A stretch of DNA of 40,773 bases, from contig QMSI01000005.1 of NCBI GenBank assembly GCA_003649615.1, positions 1 through 40,773 on the forward strand, given 5' to 3'. A model generated the notes under the pieces. It made no database searches. It worked only from the letters and a program-made list of their open reading frames with translations, and was not told the DNA's origin. Positions within the stretch are counted from its first letter, which is position 1, and each line of letters begins with the position of its first letter. A program made the position numbers and the translations under genes. Below, piece by piece: positions 3,419 to 20,400 of this stretch. The DNA is from Thermoprotei archaeon. GTDB lineage: Archaea; Thermoproteota; Methanomethylicia; Nezhaarchaeales; B40-G2.

Positions 3419-3912
3419 AGTTTAGGTATAGGAGAGTCGCGGTGGGGGGTACTTTCGATAGACTACATAAAGGACACAAAGCTCTGCTATCCAAAGCCTT
3501 CGAGGAAGGAGTCGAGGTCTACCTGGGGCTCTCCTCCGATTCCATGATTGAGGACAAGAAGCTAGCTGAGCGAGTGGAGAGCTTCGAGAAAAGGCTTGAA
3601 GCACTTAAAGCCTTCCTTGAAGAGAGAGGCTGGGTCTCTAGGACTAAGATAGTTGAGCTGAAGAGGCCTGAAGGACTTTTACTGGATGACCCTTCCATAG
3701 AGGCTTTAGTGGTGAGCGAGGAAACCAAGAGGAGAGCTGAGGAAATTAACGAGGCGAGAGTTAAGAAAGGACTCCCTCCCCTAAGCCTCGTGGTAATACC
3801 TATGGTTAAGGCCGAGGATGGGAAACCCATTTCTTCAACTAGGATAAGGGCTGGAGAGATCGATGAAAACGGCAGGTTGCTAAAGAAAACGGTAAACCAA
3901 GAAGAAGGATAG
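3415..3912 (+). CDS. coaD: Phosphopantetheine adenylyltransferase, archaeal type
   Basis: It transfers AMP to 4'-phosphopantetheine to make dephospho-CoA, the penultimate step of coenzyme A synthesis. The nucleotidyltransferase signature is intact: GGTFDRLHKGH with H18 and H21 near the N-terminus and ISSTRIRAG near residue 140, as in the archaeal/eukaryotic branch. At 165 residues it is a normal single-domain form. The GTG start is fixed by the 4-base overlap with map. Its last 33 bases overlap the 3' end of ecfT on the opposite strand. Confidence 0.95.
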   Translation: MKFRYRRVAVGGTFDRLHKGHKALLSKAFEEGVEVYLGLSSDSMIEDKKLAERVESFEKRLEALKAFLEERGWVSRTKIVELKRPEGLLLDDPSIEALVVSEETKRRAEEINEARVKKGLPPLSLVVIPMVKAEDGKPISSTRIRAGEIDENGRLLKKTVNQEEG

Positions 3913-4605
3913 GGCGAGCAACGCGAACGAAGATATCGTCACTAAGTAGTCAACTCCCCTAAACTTCAAGTCGAAGAGCCACGTACGTTTGGGTGAAGCC
4001 CCGAAAGCTCGACTCTCCATGGCTTCAGCAACCCTATAGCTACGGCGCACCGTGTTTATGACTAAAGGTATCAGTATGGGTATGAGGTTCCTGAGCCTTT
4101 TGATGAAGCCTGTCTCCAGGTCTAAACCTCTAGCTCGCTGGGCATCTATAATTAGCTGGGCCTCACGAGCTAAGGTAGGAACGAAGCGGATGGCCATGGA
4201 GAGCTCTAAGGCTAACTCGTACGGTAAACCTAGTTTAACTAGAGCAAGGGACAGGTCATCAGGGCTCGTAGTGAGGAAAAATAGCGAGAGCGAGGCTACA
4301 AGGGTGATTAGCAGGGAAACCATGGAGGCAGCGTAGAAAGCGTCGACGTACCACCAGTTAACGAGGAAGATAAAAACGGATAGTAGGATCAGCCCTTTAA
4401 GGGTCTTCAACCATTGACCTGCACAGCCAGAAGCAACTATCAGCCCTAGAGAAAGGAGGAGTAGAGCTAGAGAAGGGAGAAGGAAGCCCCTGAAGATTAT
4501 GGCTGAAGAGGCCAACGAGAAGACTAGCAGTAACTTGGACCGAGGGTCAAGCCTGTGTATGAGGCTTACTCCCTTCTTGAAGGAAAAGCCCTGTAGTAAG
4601 CTCAG
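3880..4605 (-). CDS. ecfT: ECF transporter membrane component EcfT, apparent CTG start
   Basis: EcfT couples the ATPases of an energy-coupling factor vitamin or metal importer to the substrate-binding S protein. It has several hydrophobic helices and the two coupling motifs ARG (AQRARGLD) and SRAFG (ESRAFG). The first usual start in frame is TTG 4515 (212 codons), but the sequence upstream encodes the conserved family N-terminus HRLDPRSKLL, so translation must begin earlier. The only start-like codon there is CTG 4605. It overlaps the ecfA stop as CTGA and is preceded by GAGGGGG at about 7 bases spacing. I therefore call 241 residues from CTG, which is my inference. Confidence 0.85.
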   Translation of the reverse strand: MSLLQGFSFKKGVSLIHRLDPRSKLLLVFSLASSAIIFRGFLLPSLALLLLSLGLIVASGCAGQWLKTLKGLILLSVFIFLVNWWYVDAFYAASMVSLLITLVASLSLFFLTTSPDDLSLALVKLGLPYELALELSMAIRFVPTLAREAQLIIDAQRARGLDLETGFIKRLRNLIPILIPLVINTVRRSYRVAEAMESRAFGASPKRTWLFDLKFRGVDYLVTISSFALLALSFFLVYRFL

Positions 4606-5435
4606 CTTAAAACCCCCTCGACCAGTTCTTTAGCAAATAGAGAGTAGTCTCTGAAGAGGCGGGGGGAAGGGAGGAGGCCCCGCCTAGCCAAAGCCAAAGA
4701 AAGCTCTACCGAGGGTGGTGGTAGAAGCGAGGAGGTTTTAAGAAGCTCTTCGTTCACTAAAATCTCCTCGGCGCGTCCATCAGCCACAACCCTGCCTCGT
4801 GAAAGCACCACTACCCTCGATATGTGGTCAGCCACGAAGTCCATGTCGTGGGTTATGACCACGACCGTCCTGCCCTCCTCGACCATGTTCTTCACGATGT
4901 GGGCTAGCTCCCTCTTCTGGGCAGCATCTTGACCAACGGTAGGTTCATCGAGTATTAGGACGCGCGGGTCGTAGCTTAAGATAGAGGCTAAAGCCACCCT
5001 TCTACGTTCACCACTACTAAGCGTGAGGGGAGATCTACCCCTAAACCCTTCTAAGCCCAGACGCTTCAACACTCTCTCAACTCTACTAGCAGTCTCCTCC
5101 TTAGGGTATCCGAGGTTCTTTGGAGCGAAAGCCACCTCCTCCTCCACGGTCTCCGAGAAGAGCTGATGGTCAGGGGATTGAAAGACGAAGCCCACATGCC
5201 TTGCAAGCTGAGATACCTTAGCCTTAGACACGTCTAATCCACACACCTTTACGCTACCCCGCTGTGGCTTAAGCAGCCCGATGAAGTGTTTGGCTAACGT
5301 GGTCTTGCCAGCGCCGTTCTCGCCCACTATGGCTAATAGGTCGCCCTCCTCAATTCTCAGGTTAATGCCACGTAGAGTAGGCTCAGTAGAACCAGGATAA
5401 GTAAACCAAAGATCCTCAACCTCTATGACGGCCAA
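4602..5435 (-). CDS. ecfA2: ECF transporter ATPase subunit (second copy)
   Basis: ABC ATPase that powers the ECF importer as one half of the EcfA heterodimer. Walker A is GENGAGKTT (residues 38-46), the Q-loop is FQSPDHQ, the signature is LSSGERR (second glycine replaced by serine), Walker B is LILDEPT, and the switch histidine is in ITHDMD. The C-terminal tail resembles EcfA proteins. The start is TTG 5435, inside the end of ecfA1, with GGTGGAG about 5 bases before it. Residues 4-29 come from a 77-bp stretch identical to one in ecfA1. Of the two ATPases this copy has the weaker signature motif. Confidence 0.93.
   Translation of the reverse strand: MAVIEVEDLWFTYPGSTEPTLRGINLRIEEGDLLAIVGENGAGKTTLAKHFIGLLKPQRGSVKVCGLDVSKAKVSQLARHVGFVFQSPDHQLFSETVEEEVAFAPKNLGYPKEETASRVERVLKRLGLEGFRGRSPLTLSSGERRRVALASILSYDPRVLILDEPTVGQDAAQKRELAHIVKNMVEEGRTVVVITHDMDFVADHISRVVVLSRGRVVADGRAEEILVNEELLKTSSLLPPPSVELSLALARRGLLPSPRLFRDYSLFAKELVEGVLS
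5349..5425 (-). repeat. 77-bp exact direct repeat, copy in ecfA2
   Basis: This stretch is identical base for base to 6181-6257, at an offset of 832 bases. It encodes residues 4-29 of EcfA2, covering the aromatic nucleotide-contacting region before Walker A. The identity stops abruptly at both ends, while the rest of the two genes differs. Confidence 0.97.
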
Positions 5436-6270
5436 GAAACTCCACCAACCCTTCGGCTAGCTCCTCAGAAGTTAGCGGAGGCCTTGCTAGCTTGACGCCG
5501 TGAACCAACAGCTGCTTGAAAAGCCGAATAGGCTTAGGTACCGCTACACCAAGCCTCAACGCCTCTTCTGAGGAGAGAGCTTCTCGTGGGTCGCCTTGGA
5601 CCAGCACGGCTCCACGATCCATCAACACCACCTGGTCTGCGTATCGAGCCACGAGGTCGAGTCTATGCTCGACCAGGATGACCGTTAAGCCTTCTTCGTT
5701 AAGCTCGATGAGGGCTTTGGTTAGCTCCAAGGCGCTTACGGGGTCTAGGTTAGATGTGGGTTCATCGAGCACGAGAACACTGGGCTTCAGGGCGAGAGCC
5801 GCGGCTATAGCCACCTTCTGCTGCTCCCCTCCAGAAAGCTCGAAAGGCGCCTTGTCACGTAGATGCTCGATCCTTAAAGCCTTTAGCGCCTCTTCAACCC
5901 TACTCTTAACTTCCTCGGTGGGGAGGCCAAGATTCTCAGGGCCGAAGGCTATCTCCCTCTCCACGGACAAGCATATAAGCTGGTCTTCAGGTTCCTGAAA
6001 CACCATCCCTACTTCGCGGGCCAGCTCGTGGGTGGAGCGGGATGCGACGTCTATGCCGTTAACCAGTACCCTTCCCCGTAAAGTGCCGCCGTAGAAGTGA
6101 GGTATAAGGCCGTTGAAACACCTACAGAGAGTGGTTTTACCGCAGCCACTAGGGCCAGCTATAATAGTGAAGGAGCCACGCTCAATTCTCAGGTTAATGC
6201 CACGTAGAGTAGGCTCAGTAGAACCAGGATAAGTAAACCAAAGATCCTCAACCTCTACCGCTACATCCAT
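5416..6270 (-). CDS. ecfA1: ECF transporter ATPase subunit (first copy)
   Basis: ABC ATPase partner of EcfA2 in an ECF importer complex at the inner face of the membrane. It shows Walker A GPSGCGKTT (39-47), Q-loop FQEPEDQ, canonical signature LSGGEQQ near 143, Walker B LVLDEPTSNLD and switch histidine VEHRLD. The start is ATG 6270, with GGAGG 10 bases upstream. It lies 30 bases after the DUF3194 gene on the same strand, so the ECF genes look appended to the prefoldin/exosome block. No S component that would define the imported substrate is seen in the window. Its 3' end overlaps ecfA2 by 20 bases. Confidence 0.94.
   Translation of the reverse strand: MDVAVEVEDLWFTYPGSTEPTLRGINLRIERGSFTIIAGPSGCGKTTLCRCFNGLIPHFYGGTLRGRVLVNGIDVASRSTHELAREVGMVFQEPEDQLICLSVEREIAFGPENLGLPTEEVKSRVEEALKALRIEHLRDKAPFELSGGEQQKVAIAAALALKPSVLVLDEPTSNLDPVSALELTKALIELNEEGLTVILVEHRLDLVARYADQVVLMDRGAVLVQGDPREALSSEEALRLGVAVPKPIRLFKQLLVHGVKLARPPLTSEELAEGLVEFLGRHRG
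6181..6257 (-). repeat. 77-bp exact direct repeat, copy in ecfA1
   Basis: Identical to 5349-5425. It encodes residues 5-30 of EcfA1. The bases just outside differ on both sides (6180 versus 5348, and 6258 versus 5426), which marks sharp conversion-like borders. Confidence 0.97.
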
Positions 6271-8076: not shown

Positions 8077-8874
8077 CTAAGTCCCCCCCGCTAAGGTTTT
8101 AAGGTAGGAGTAGAGCTCCTCGCCTTTACTTAAAGCCATCGACGCAGCTTTCTGCAGCTCTTCCACCTCAAAGACCCCTTCTCCACTTTTCTGCGCGGCG
8201 CAGAGTTTGCCTTCAACTACTGATAGAGATAACTTTGCGTCGGCAGCTTCCTCCTCATCCAGCACAGGATCCACCACTAGGGTATCGCCTATCTTAGCGA
8301 TGGTGACGGTTACAGGCATCTTTGATAAAGGAGGAGGAACCTTATCTTCGTAGTTCACCTTTACCCTCTCCTCCTCCACATCAGCCTGAGGGATCCTTGA
8401 CGATAATAAGGCGGCCGAGGTAGCGAGAGCTGAAGCATCTATGAGGTTTCCGTCGTGGTTGAGCACGTAGATGTCGATCCAAGCAATCCATACACTTTTA
8501 CCTGGAACAAGGCATAGCTTAGATAGGTCCACTGCTTCAGCCTTCCTCAAGCTCCTATCTATTACCCTAGCAAGCTCAATAGCGTTTTCATCAGGAGGGC
8601 CTGACTCAAAAGTAGGAGAAGCTAGAGGGAGAAACTCTGCGTTGACAGTTAACACCCCCAGGTCTGGGGTATCAGGGAAAGGAGGGCCTATTTCATACTT
8701 AATGCCAGCAAGCACGAGAGTATCGCCTATACTTACGCGCGCAGAGCCATCAGCCCTGCCTATCAGGTTGGTTTCTACCTTGATATTTCGGTACTGGTCT
8801 AGAGTCCTACCGTCAACTCTACGGCCACTATTCAACAACGATAGGATCTGGGCTTTCTTTACCTTCGATATCAA
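8077..8874 (-). CDS. rrp42: Exosome complex subunit Rrp42
   Basis: An RNase PH-fold protein that is the inactive partner of Rrp41 in the hexameric ring of the archaeal exosome, which degrades and tails RNA 3'-5'. The 265 residues begin with the usual helix and [14 protein letters not shown], and include the family segment [15 protein letters not shown]. The start is TTG 8874, overlapping the rrp41 stop as TTGA. Confidence 0.97.
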
Positions 8875-13839: not shown

Positions 13840-14841
13840 CTACGCACCTTGCTTAGACTCTAAGCTTATGAATGAGATCTTAGGGGGCTCAGCTTTCCAA
13901 GTAGGCCCCCTCACAGGGAGACGCAGCTTGACAAGCCTACCCCGAGGGCCAGGTATAGAGCCTTCAATGAGGAGGTAGTCGCCCCTGACCACTCCATAGC
14001 CTACAAAGCCTCCTTTAACCTGAACCTCGCTAGGGTCTGACCCTACCTTCAACAACCGCTTATTGAACTCGGTTCTCTGCTGGAAACCGAGCTGTCCTGG
14101 GCGGGGGATCGTAAACATCATGCTTGGATGTTGCGGGCTTATGGCTCCTACCTTCCTATACCCTTTACGGTGCTTATGCCATCTTGGCATTATCTTCACG
14201 CCGAAGCGCTTAACCACGCCCTCGAAGCCCTTCCCCTTGGTTATCGAGATCACATCGACGTACTGCCCGTCCTTAAACACCTCTGTGACCTTAACCTCCT
14301 TGCCTAGGATCGACTTGGCATACTCAAACTGACCCTTAACCTCTCCCCCACCGATCTTTATTTCGAAGACCTCAGGTTTCTTCTTCCCCAACCCAGACTT
14401 CCTAGGCTGAGTACATACAAGGACACGGATCTCGGCTACACGGTTTAGGTTCGCCTCTATCTCCTCTAAGCTTCCACCCCGCTTCGGTAGAGGCCTAATG
14501 GTCCTTTCAAGGCCCTTAGGCAAATCCTCGGCGAAGCACTCAGTTAAGGTCCTCAGCCCTAAGGGATGCCTCTCATAAGCTCTAACAGCACACACGTAGA
14601 GTGGAGGGGCATCGAGCACAGTACAGGCCTTAACCACCTCTCTGCCGTAGAGGGGGCTCGACGGGTCGCTCTCGACCATTACCACGTGGGTCATCCCCGC
14701 TTTATAAGCAGCAAACCCTAGAAGACAGGGCCCTTCAGAAACCTCCGGCCAAGACCTAATCCTAGGGATAAGCTTCCTAGCCCTAACCCTAGGATAGAAG
14801 GCTAAGGATCCTCTCCTGGGAGCGTGTATTCGCCTACCCAA
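13840..14841 (-). CDS. rpl3: 50S ribosomal protein L3
   Basis: A 333-residue archaeal-type L3, an early assembly protein near the catalytic centre. The N-terminus (RRGSLAFYPRVRARKLIPRI), the AYKAGMTHVV motif and the SITKGKGFEGVVKRFG region with the HKHRKGYRKVGAISP extension are all typical. The only in-frame start is TTG 14841. It begins the L3-L4-L23-L2 run, which is the first part of the archaeal S10-type operon. Confidence 0.97.
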   Translation of the reverse strand: MGRRIHAPRRGSLAFYPRVRARKLIPRIRSWPEVSEGPCLLGFAAYKAGMTHVVMVESDPSSPLYGREVVKACTVLDAPPLYVCAVRAYERHPLGLRTLTECFAEDLPKGLERTIRPLPKRGGSLEEIEANLNRVAEIRVLVCTQPRKSGLGKKKPEVFEIKIGGGEVKGQFEYAKSILGKEVKVTEVFKDGQYVDVISITKGKGFEGVVKRFGVKIMPRWHKHRKGYRKVGAISPQHPSMMFTIPRPGQLGFQQRTEFNKRLLKVGSDPSEVQVKGGFVGYGVVRGDYLLIEGSIPGPRGRLVKLRLPVRGPTWKAEPPKISFISLESKQGA

Positions 14842-17408: not shown

Positions 17409-20400
17409 TTAAGGGGAGGTCAACTTGATACCCATCTCATAGCTTTCACCATCGATAGTCCATCGTTTAACGTAGAAGCCCTTCTCAACCGTCCCTACAC
17501 CTGTCCTCAAGGATAGTTGTCTTACTCGGACCTCTTGGCGTATATAGTCCTCCATCCGTTTAAGCCTTGACAAAGACGCATCGCTAGGGACATTAATGAA
17601 GGCGTCCACGTAAGCCTCCACCGGTAGATCTAGGTTCTTCCTCATCTCTTGCAGCCTCCTAACCACTTCTCTAGCTAAGCTCTCAGCAGCGAGCTCCTCG
17701 GTTACCTCCACGTCTAGGTAGAGGATACCTCCTCGAAACTTAGCCTTAATGAGGCCTTCCTTTAACCTAACCTCCTCCCCAGGGGTTAAGAACTCTAAGT
17801 CCTTGATGTTCATCTGGTCGAGGAGTAGGTGACGTAGGCGTTCTATGCAGTCCTTAACCTTGGTCTCCTCGCTCATGATCAACGCTTTCCCTAGAGGCTT
17901 CCGAAGCTTAAGCCCAGCAGCCTGTCTAGCGCTTAGCGACGCCTCGACGATATTTCTAGCGATGTCCATAAGGGCCTCTAGGTCTTCATCTATCAGTGAT
18001 TCGTCCGGCTCTGGCCAACGGCATAGGTGGATGCTCTTGGGCATCGAGGAGGAGAGAGGCCTAAACATGTGCTGATAGATGTGCTCTGCGAGGAGAGGTA
18101 TGAAAGCAGCAGCCATCCTTAGGAAAGCGTACAGCGCCTGGTAAAGGGCGTAGTATGCTGCAAGCTTGGCAGGGTCAGATTTATCGATCCATGTCCTACG
18201 CCTGATAAGCCTTATGTACCATCTGCTGACGTCATCGAGGATGAAGGAGCTTAAAGCTCTTAAAGCTTCATGGATAGTCAAACCATCAAGCGAGGAGGAC
18301 ACTTGTTTAATCAGCCTCTGTGTCCTTGAAAGCAACCATTTATCTTCAGGTGCCAGCCACTCCCTAACCTCCTCGCCCAATGAGAGCGGGTTAAACCTAT
18401 CCAGGTTCATGTAGAGGCTGGCGAAGTAGAAAGTGTTCCATAGTACGTTAAGGTCGCGGTAGGCCTCCTCGACGCCTCTCCAAGAGAAGTGAAGGTCCTC
18501 CCAAGTGGTGCATGAAAGCTCATACCACCTTAGAGCGTCTCTACCGTACTTCCCGATGACCTCCTCCGGGTATACTATGTTGCCCAGCGACTTATGCATC
18601 GCCCTTCCCTGCTCGTCAAGCGAGAAGCCGTGGACCAGGACGTTACGGTAAGGCGCCTTATCGAACACCACCATGCTCGTGACCAGTAGCGTGTAAAACC
18701 AGCCCCTCGTCTGGTCATGGCCCTCCAGCACTAAGTCGGCAGGCCACCATTTATCCAGCTCATCATCTCTACTAGGATACTTAAGACAAGCCCAAGAGGC
18801 AGCTCCAGAGTCCATCCACACGTCTAGCACGTCAGGCACCCTTCTCATCAACCCACCACAGGAGCAGCGGAGCAGGACTTCGTCTATCCAGGGCCTATGA
18901 AGGTCTAAGGGGTCGGGCAACGGTGAGGCGGCTTCCTCTTTAAGCTCCTTTAAGGAGCCTATCACCTTAAAGGAAGAGCAACGTTCGCAGACCCATACAG
19001 GTAGAGGTACCCCCCAATATCGTTGTCTAGAGATAACCCAATCCTTCGCCTCCTCGAGCCATTTCCTAAACCTCATCTGACCTGCCCATTCAGGAGCCCA
19101 CCTGACACGGTCGTTCTCCTCTAAGAGACGGTCACGTATAGCGGTCACCTTAATGAACCATTGAGTAGCCGCCTTCAGTATTAGCGGCGATTTGCACCTC
19201 CAACAGTGAGGGTAGCGATGCGCGATGGTTCCTTTTGCCAGGAGGAGACCCTTAGCTTCTAGATCTTTTATGATTTCCTCGTCAGCATCAAACACAAACT
19301 TACCAGCATACTTCCCAGCTTCCGCCGTGTATACTCCTCTCTCATCAACTGGCGAAAGTATGGGGAGACCGTAGCTTAAACCCACCTCGAAGTCTTCTTC
19401 ACCATGCCCTGGAGCTGAGTGAACACAGCCCGTACCTTCAGTTAAGGTTACGTACTCAGCGCTCAGTACCACCATATGTGCTGGGCTCACTTCTAGCTGT
19501 TTAGGTACTTCTTCCGCTAGAGGAGGATGGTACCTTAAGCCTTCAAGGTCGCTGCCGGGGAAGGACTCGAGGATCTCATAGCTCAAGCCAGCCTCCTTGA
19601 ATACCTCCTCACACCTCGCCTCAGCTAGGATGTATATTTCATCTCCTGCCTTCACCCTGACGTAGGTGTAGTCAGGGTGAACCATAACCGCCACGTTAGC
19701 CGGTAAAGTCCAAGGAGTGGTGGTCCAGATCAAGATATACTCCTTATCCCTACCCTCTAAGGGGAACTTAACGTAGATGGAGGGGCTCTTAACCTCTCTA
19801 TACTCCTCGGTAACCTCATAGCCAGCTAACACCGTGCCACACCGAGGACACCAGTGGACTACCTTAACACCCCTCCAGAGGAGGCCCCTCTCGTGAGCTC
19901 GTTTAACCACTAGCCATACAGCCTCTATGTAGTCGTTGTCGATGGTTCTGTACGGCTTTTCCCAGTCCATCCACACCGCTAAGTTCTTGAACTGTTTAGT
20001 TAACACCTCTAGGTTTTCTAGGGCGTAGGCTCGACATTCATTCACGAAATGAGCTACACCGAGCTTCTCCTCGATCTCCCTCTTAGAGCCTAGGCCTAGC
20101 CTCCTCTCCACCATAACCTCTATGGGAAGCCCGTGCATATCGAAGCCAGGTTGATCACGGACGTCGTAACCCTTCATTCGATGGTACCGCAGAAACACAT
20201 CCTTGATCAGCTTATTCCAAGCTGTGCCCACGTGGATAGGGTTAGTCACGTAAGGAGGGCCATCTAGGAAGTAGAACTTAGGCCCTCCTCTACCGGCTTC
20301 CTTAGCTTCACGGTATATCCCATCCTCCTCCCACCACTTCAGCAAGGCTTCCTCGTATGACCTAGGGTCAAAGCGTTTAGGCAGGAGACCTATGTAGCCT

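Follow-up and report, generated by a model that had tools for sequence, protein, structure and literature searches.

Probable gene conversion of a short block shared by two strongly diverged ecfA genes in two related archaea

Two adjacent and strongly diverged ATPase genes of a predicted archaeal ECF transporter share a block of 77 nt that is 100% identical between them, and a relative from another genus carries an island of its own over the same 25 codons (two out of two family genomes). We put at roughly 0.87 the probability that gene conversion has homogenised this block in the two lineages, either continuously since their ancestor or in separate events. Gene conversion between paralogues is well known, and the ecfA repeat is a new case of it. 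Throughout, the window denotes the whole stretch of 40,773 nt that was analysed, which belongs to a 1.58-Mb draft genome (G000), probably that of an archaeon from the class Methanomethylicia (Thermoproteota), and G001 denotes the relative, the sole other genome of the same family that was compared.

Results

An identical block in two diverged ATPase genes

A repeat search of the window with an exact seed of 16 reproduces the exact 77-bp identity noted in the original prediction and places the two copies at a start-to-start spacing of 832 (Table 1). This pair is the sole direct or inverted repeat of at least 28 nt in the window, and a search of the draft genome finds two copies of the block, both in the window. 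The copies are read in the same codon phase and hold 25 whole codons, which encode the peptide EVEDLWFTYPGSTEPTLRGINLRIE; in both ecfA genes the block ends 24 nt short of the Walker A codons. The ecfA2-type gene has a TTG start and overlaps the 3' end of ecfA1; the final codons of ecfA1 and its stop codon lie within the 5' end of repeat copy 2.

The genes adjoin a gene for the transmembrane component EcfT, as expected of tandem ABC ATPases that serve ECF transporters. PF00005 matches the two ATPases at 108.5 and 118.8 bits. The best NCBIfam model is TIGR04520 for the first (251.3 bits, below the equivalog cut-off of 315) and TIGR04521 for the second (256.1 bits, below the equivalog cut-off of 330). 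The best match of the first ATPase among solved structures, 4mki_B, is annotated EcfA2.

Table 1. Positions of the genes and exact repeats discussed in the text; coordinates without a locus prefix refer to the window.
Feature	Position	Strand	Details
Repeat copy 1	6181..6257	(-)	codons 6-30 of first ECF ATPase gene
Repeat copy 2	5349..5425	(-)	codons 5-29 of second ECF ATPase gene
ecfA1-type ATPase gene	5416..6270	(-)	Walker A GPSGCGKTT, 284 aa
ecfA2-type ATPase gene	4602..5435	(-)	Walker A GENGAGKTT, 277 aa
ecfT (CbiQ family) transmembrane component	3880..4515	(-)	PF02361, 90 bits, cut-off 25
G001 repeat	L113:7639-7747 and 8471-8579		exact, 109 nt, spacing 832
Cdc48-like gene, D1/D2 Walker A regions	L138:18969-19025 and 19788-19844		window genome contig 2, 57-nt exact repeat
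Adjacent NuoM-like/NuoL-like genes	L144:12835-12899 and 14771-14835		window genome contig 9, 65-nt exact repeat, HVWLPDAHSEAPAPVSAMLS
In-frame exact repeat, other Thermoproteota	L261:2599 and 5701		192 nt, flanks diverged
In-frame exact repeat, other Thermoproteota	L265:9633 and 10373		42 nt, flanks diverged
In-frame exact repeat, other Thermoproteota	L271:18128 and 19492		111 nt, flank up to 0.65 identical on one side
In-frame exact repeat, other Thermoproteota	L289:943 and 5191		60 nt, flank up to 0.87 identical on one side

Outside the block the window pair shares 42% protein identity and 48% DNA identity, in agreement with the diverged remainder that had been described for these genes. Where the two proteins have the same residue, the codon is identical at 25/25 positions within the block vs 40/102 outside it. 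With the peptide taken as given, the probability that every synonymous choice agrees by chance is log10 P = -11.0 (codon usage taken from 12 window genes), and chance is thus excluded as the source of the 77-nt identity (about 1e-11 from codon choice alone). The ungapped identity in the 150-nt flanks is 0.37 and 0.22. The sharp borders and the identity at third codon positions that were claimed earlier are therefore both recovered. GC at third positions is 0.32 in the block vs 0.59 in the remainder of both genes, and values as low as that of the block are found in 3.8% of 583 overlapping 25-codon windows from the 12 window genes. Exchange by conversion within the ecfA pair offers no explanation for this low value.

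The relative carries its own repeat at the same place

The ecfA1 proteins of the window and G001 are 70% identical. G001 has an exact repeat at the place homologous to that of the window repeat, which encodes the peptide VVEDLWYSYPNHPEPVLKGVDLKID. Between the two genomes the block is identical at 53% of DNA positions, 52% of residues and 20% of third positions, and the remainder of the orthologues is identical at 0.71 and 0.65 of residues, at 65% and 65% of DNA positions, and at 39% and 44% of third positions. Within each genome, the block is shared between paralogues with an identity of 1.00 (window) and 0.99 (G001), vs 0.53 between genomes. Codons of the G001 block agree between paralogues at 24/25 positions, the 150-nt flanks there are 0.33 and 0.20 identical, and GC3 of the block is 0.72 and 0.68 in the two genes vs 0.60 in the remainder.

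Paralogues that match within a genome, with orthologues that do not match between genomes, are the mark of concerted evolution. The original prediction of recent gene conversion thus holds as regards conversion, which is the best reading, and is incomplete as regards a single event, given that G001 has a 109-nt repeat of its own. Relatives that retain the same identity at ancient depth had been named there as grounds for refutation. Identity is indeed kept within each genome, but the sequence itself is not kept between genomes; this supports repeated conversion rather than selection on sequence, in line with the original claim that the identity does not reflect selection on protein.

The shared stretch stands out among tandem ABC-ATPase pairs. 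In a survey of 86 such pairs parsed from 137 records, over the region from 200 nt ahead of Walker A to 500 nt past it, the longest shared stretch is 77 nt in the window pair, 109 nt in the G001 pair and 8-23 nt in the other 84 pairs. These 84 include two further tandem ABC pairs from the same two genomes, one in each, with a shared stretch of 11 nt apiece. Across 216,001 nt of G001, the ecfA repeat is the sole exact repeat of at least 25 nt.

Donor and direction of the probable conversion

The G001 tract starts 38 nt ahead of the start of the conserved block. At the ecfA1/ecfA2 junction of G001 these 38 nt encode the C-terminus of ecfA1, AEELVGFLERYS, which matches the end of ecfA1 in the window, AEGLVEFLGRHR; at the start of ecfA1 the same 38 nt are positioned ahead of the conserved block. 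The presence of an ecfA1 3' end at the ecfA1 start indicates a transfer to that site, which also took along the presumed ecfA2 start (TTG). In G001, the ecfA1/ecfA2 junction was thus the donor and the ecfA1 start the recipient.

The composition of the blocks was scored against profiles of 55 other A1/A2 pairs (84 pairs parsed, 27 dropped for a Walker A unlike both types, and 55 left besides the two family members). The A1/A2 log2 odds are +7.0 for the window block and -14.3 for the G001 block, and the leave-one-out medians are +26.3 (55 A1) and -28.0 (54 A2), with 1/55 A1 and 3/54 A2 on the wrong side in this control. Both blocks contain an ecfA2-type W (elsewhere in 0/55 A1 and 14/55 A2) and an ecfA2-type G (elsewhere in 1/55 A1 and 37/55 A2), together with an ecfA1-type extra residue, at which a gap is found in 0/55 A1 and 51/55 A2. 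This same A1/A2 mixture in both blocks suggests that a homogenised patchwork block was already present in the ancestor of the family; convergence over 25 residues could be an alternative source of the mixed signature. To the earlier question of which copy was the donor, G001 thus gives an answer, with the direction running from the junction to the ecfA1 start; the window block is mixed and scores between the two types.

Cdc48 D1/D2 and other duplicates

Exact repeats of at least 25 nt are found at two further places in the window genome, among ten 20-kb stretches and the window. They lie in a Cdc48-like gene, where a 26-nt repeat stands beside the 57-nt one, and in adjacent NuoM-like and NuoL-like genes (Table 1), all three names being assigned from translations. 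The antiporter island is present in 2/14 loci returned (L171 and L184), both from the window genome and both the same island; these loci reach 1.5 kb past the match, and neighbours may be cut. In the case of the Cdc48 island, the ten best Cdc48-like orthologues (L157-L166) all have exact runs of 42-121 nt, with 121 nt in G001, and a second Cdc48-like gene (L170) has a longest run of 12 nt only.

Two control groups were compared with the Thermoproteota: the order that contains Methanococcoides, which we take to be Methanosarcinales, and a set of five Baldr-, Thor-, Loki-, Sigyn- and Prometheoarchaeal genomes, presumably all Asgard. A D1/D2 run of at least 40 nt occurs in 21/38 Thermoproteota Cdc48 genes (median 45, maximum 121, mean of the codon-resampled null 13.5), these loci being best matches to the query that include close relatives and are not independent. 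No such run is found in 29 Methanosarcinales genes (median 13, maximum 26, null 10.7) or in eight genes from the five Asgard genomes (median 13, maximum 17, null 11.6). Eight loci (four Thermoproteota, two from the Asgard set and two Methanosarcinales) were excluded from these counts because they yielded no ORF that carries two motifs at the required distance. Runs are shorter than 40 nt in the remaining 17/38 Thermoproteota genes, and 18 nt or less in 11 of these. The run exceeds all 300 resampled nulls in 25/38 Thermoproteota vs 1/29 Methanosarcinales genes (26 nt), and codon agreement is in excess (z above 3) in 15/38 vs 3/29. In 11 genes picked for carrying an island at Walker A, D1 and D2 of the same genome use the same codon at 233/241 same-residue positions, and the same domain does so between families at 741/2267.

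A gene-blind scan for exact repeats of at least 40 nt, 150-5000 nt apart, gives no clear separation of Thermoproteota from Methanosarcinales. It covered 62 Thermoproteota stretches (1,256,774 nt; G000 and G001 supplied 22 of these, among them both ecfA regions, which were chosen for the finding) and 40 Methanosarcinales stretches (800,000 nt), and returned 20 repeats in the former vs 89 in the latter. One Methanosarcinales stretch with a repetitive 5,715-nt frame accounts for 73/89 and one low-complexity Thermoproteota stretch for 10/20. In-frame pairs of ORFs with flanks below 90% number 20 in Thermoproteota vs 7 in Methanosarcinales, and examples from other Thermoproteota are included in Table 1.

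Occurrence of MutS

Hyperthermophilic archaea have been described as devoid of MutS and MutL homologues, proteins with an antirecombination role elsewhere, and short-patch conversion is reported from Sulfolobus (excerpts of PMC4471258). In our searches the MutS_I domain is found in 0/11 near relatives and in 0/61 Thermoproteota genomes, where G000 is in both sets and some genomes are incomplete. The domain is found in 25/40 genomes of the order of Methanococcoides and in 5/5 genomes of the Asgard set. Its absence therefore parallels the Cdc48 runs of at least 40 nt across groups, a parallel that is confounded by descent. We further note that 7/29 Methanosarcinales Cdc48 genes come from genomes without a MutS_I match (L234, L238, L239, L241, L246, L247 and L250), and none of them has a run of 40 nt. 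Missing MutS was accordingly rejected as a sufficient cause; as a cause of the islands it is possible but confounded.

These observations lead us to a broader proposal, which we hold tentatively and with somewhat more doubt than belief: in Thermoproteota, which lack MutS_I in the genomes searched, short-tract conversion between diverged duplicates roughly 1 kb apart may be pervasive, with patches of ~40-120 nt over shared motifs being repeatedly rewritten. If so, EcfA pairs, the D1 and D2 domains of Cdc48 and complex-I-like antiporter subunits would evolve partly in concert, with their remainder diverging freely. This wider pattern in Cdc48 and other duplicates is a more interesting lead than the window repeat itself, and the Cdc48 pattern offers a simple way to follow, in nature, how diverged sequences recombine in archaea that lack MutS.

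Discussion

Proposed mechanism of homogenisation

The ecfA repeat is most simply explained by short-tract conversion within a single molecule. One copy would serve as the template for rewriting the other, at a distance of 832 nt on that molecule, through homologous strand invasion or template switching, with short flanking similarity and the already identical block serving as a possible foothold. Longer conversions would be removed by selection because the subunits need different Walker A residues (PSGC vs ENGA), which may also be why the tract stops short of Walker A. We infer both the enzymology of conversion and this selective trimming of borders. The ecfA block halts before the subunit-specific Walker A, whereas many Cdc48 islands cross a Walker A that is common to both domains, and this contrast fits selection that trims tracts over subunit-specific residues. 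A crossover between the two copies would remove 832 nt; since the copies share the same phase (offsets 13 and 10), one intact ecfA2-like gene would be left.

Alternative explanations

The shared features of the two blocks lead us to think that homogenisation would have begun before the split of the two genera. A narrower version of the conversion account, not exclusive of the main reading, has one recent conversion in the lineage of the window and an unrelated one in that of G001, from an ancestor without a homogenised block; with only two lineages of the family compared, a single separate event in each would fit as well. The 77 nt without a mismatch imply that the last event was recent relative to mutation, and the G001 tract differs from that of the window in borders and length, both as this version expects. 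Against it stand the island over the same 25 codons in both family members and the combination, present in both blocks, of an ecfA1-type extra residue with W and G of the ecfA2 type, and we consider it rather unlikely. It is very improbable that both genes took the block from elsewhere, for instance from a further ABC ATPase gene or from foreign DNA. The low third-position GC of the window block would agree with such an origin, but the genome search finds no third copy, the G001 tract holds the 3' end of ecfA1 itself, which makes the junction the source there, and GC3 of the G001 block (0.72/0.68) does not lie below that of the remainder (0.60).

Selection for an identical protein segment or RNA element in both subunits would be in keeping with the location of the segment at the start of both proteins, and the inclusion of the presumed TTG start of both genes in the G001 repeat could equalise the translation of subunits of one complex. 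Such selection would, however, have to explain why synonymous sites are identical as well, why the sequence differs between the two genomes (third positions 20% alike) and why 84 other tandem pairs show no such identity, and we regard it as most unlikely. Word lengths of 77 are common in assembly. The genome is a draft of 170 contigs with 6.26% contamination, and the original prediction had raised an assembly artefact as an option, taken here as an error of assembly or consensus by which one copy overwrote the other. We find this extremely improbable, since a separate genome, G001, has a 109-nt repeat of other sequence at the same place, and since the copies lie in frame at homologous positions, show no indel and run into distinct genes that have orthologues in G001. 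The longest exact Cdc48 D1/D2 runs, moreover, extend from 12 to 121 nt (34/37 genes with one listed) and follow no single word length.

Relation to known cases of gene conversion

The probable gene conversion in both ecfA lineages has its closest parallels among paralogues of prokaryotes. The methanogen genes mtrA-1 and mtrA-2 are likewise archaeal tandem duplicates in one operon that have undergone recurrent conversion over a long time; there the MtrA domain is homogenised, whereas in ecfA only ~25 codons of strongly diverged genes are affected (excerpts of PMC4632066). Similarly, the bacterial release-factor genes RF1 and RF2, examined by maximum-likelihood phylogeny and sliding windows, are anciently diverged paralogues that swapped one segment of common function by partial gene conversion, in opposite directions in two cases, although nearly a whole domain was converted, unlike in ecfA (excerpts of PMC4530459). 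The 26 recurrently concerted genes described in prokaryotes resemble the present case in that recurrent conversion keeps paralogues alike at synonymous and non-synonymous sites, and differ in being nearly identical between copies (excerpts of PMC6053082); the terms ABC transporter, ATP-binding and ecfA are absent from the main text of that paper. The short discontinuous tracts of Sulfolobus acidocaldarius, an archaeon without MutS/MutL homologues, are also similar, but arose upon laboratory transformation with DNA carrying few marker differences (excerpts of PMC4471258), whereas the ecfA case is a natural exchange between diverged paralogues of uncultured archaea. If the link to mismatch repair is true, it is genetically testable in Sulfolobus.

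Among the matches listed in our literature searches, there is no report of conversion in ecfA or archaeal Cdc48. In the available excerpts of PMC8046335, the one paper listed that mentions ecfA1 as well as gene conversion, the converted genes are rpsN and tuf rather than ecfA. No paper was retrieved by a search on archaeal ectopic conversion with direct repeats. The ecfA repeat means that two strongly diverged transporter subunits share a segment that evolves as one sequence, and trees of such genes can therefore mislead.

Finally, the starts of the G001 genes may be read in more than one way. In both ATPase genes the G001 repeat covers the presumed TTG start along with the DNA immediately ahead of it, and translation of the two could thus begin at one and the same sequence. 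If an in-frame GTG in G001 were used as the start instead, the 38 nt would become an N-terminal extension, read in another frame.
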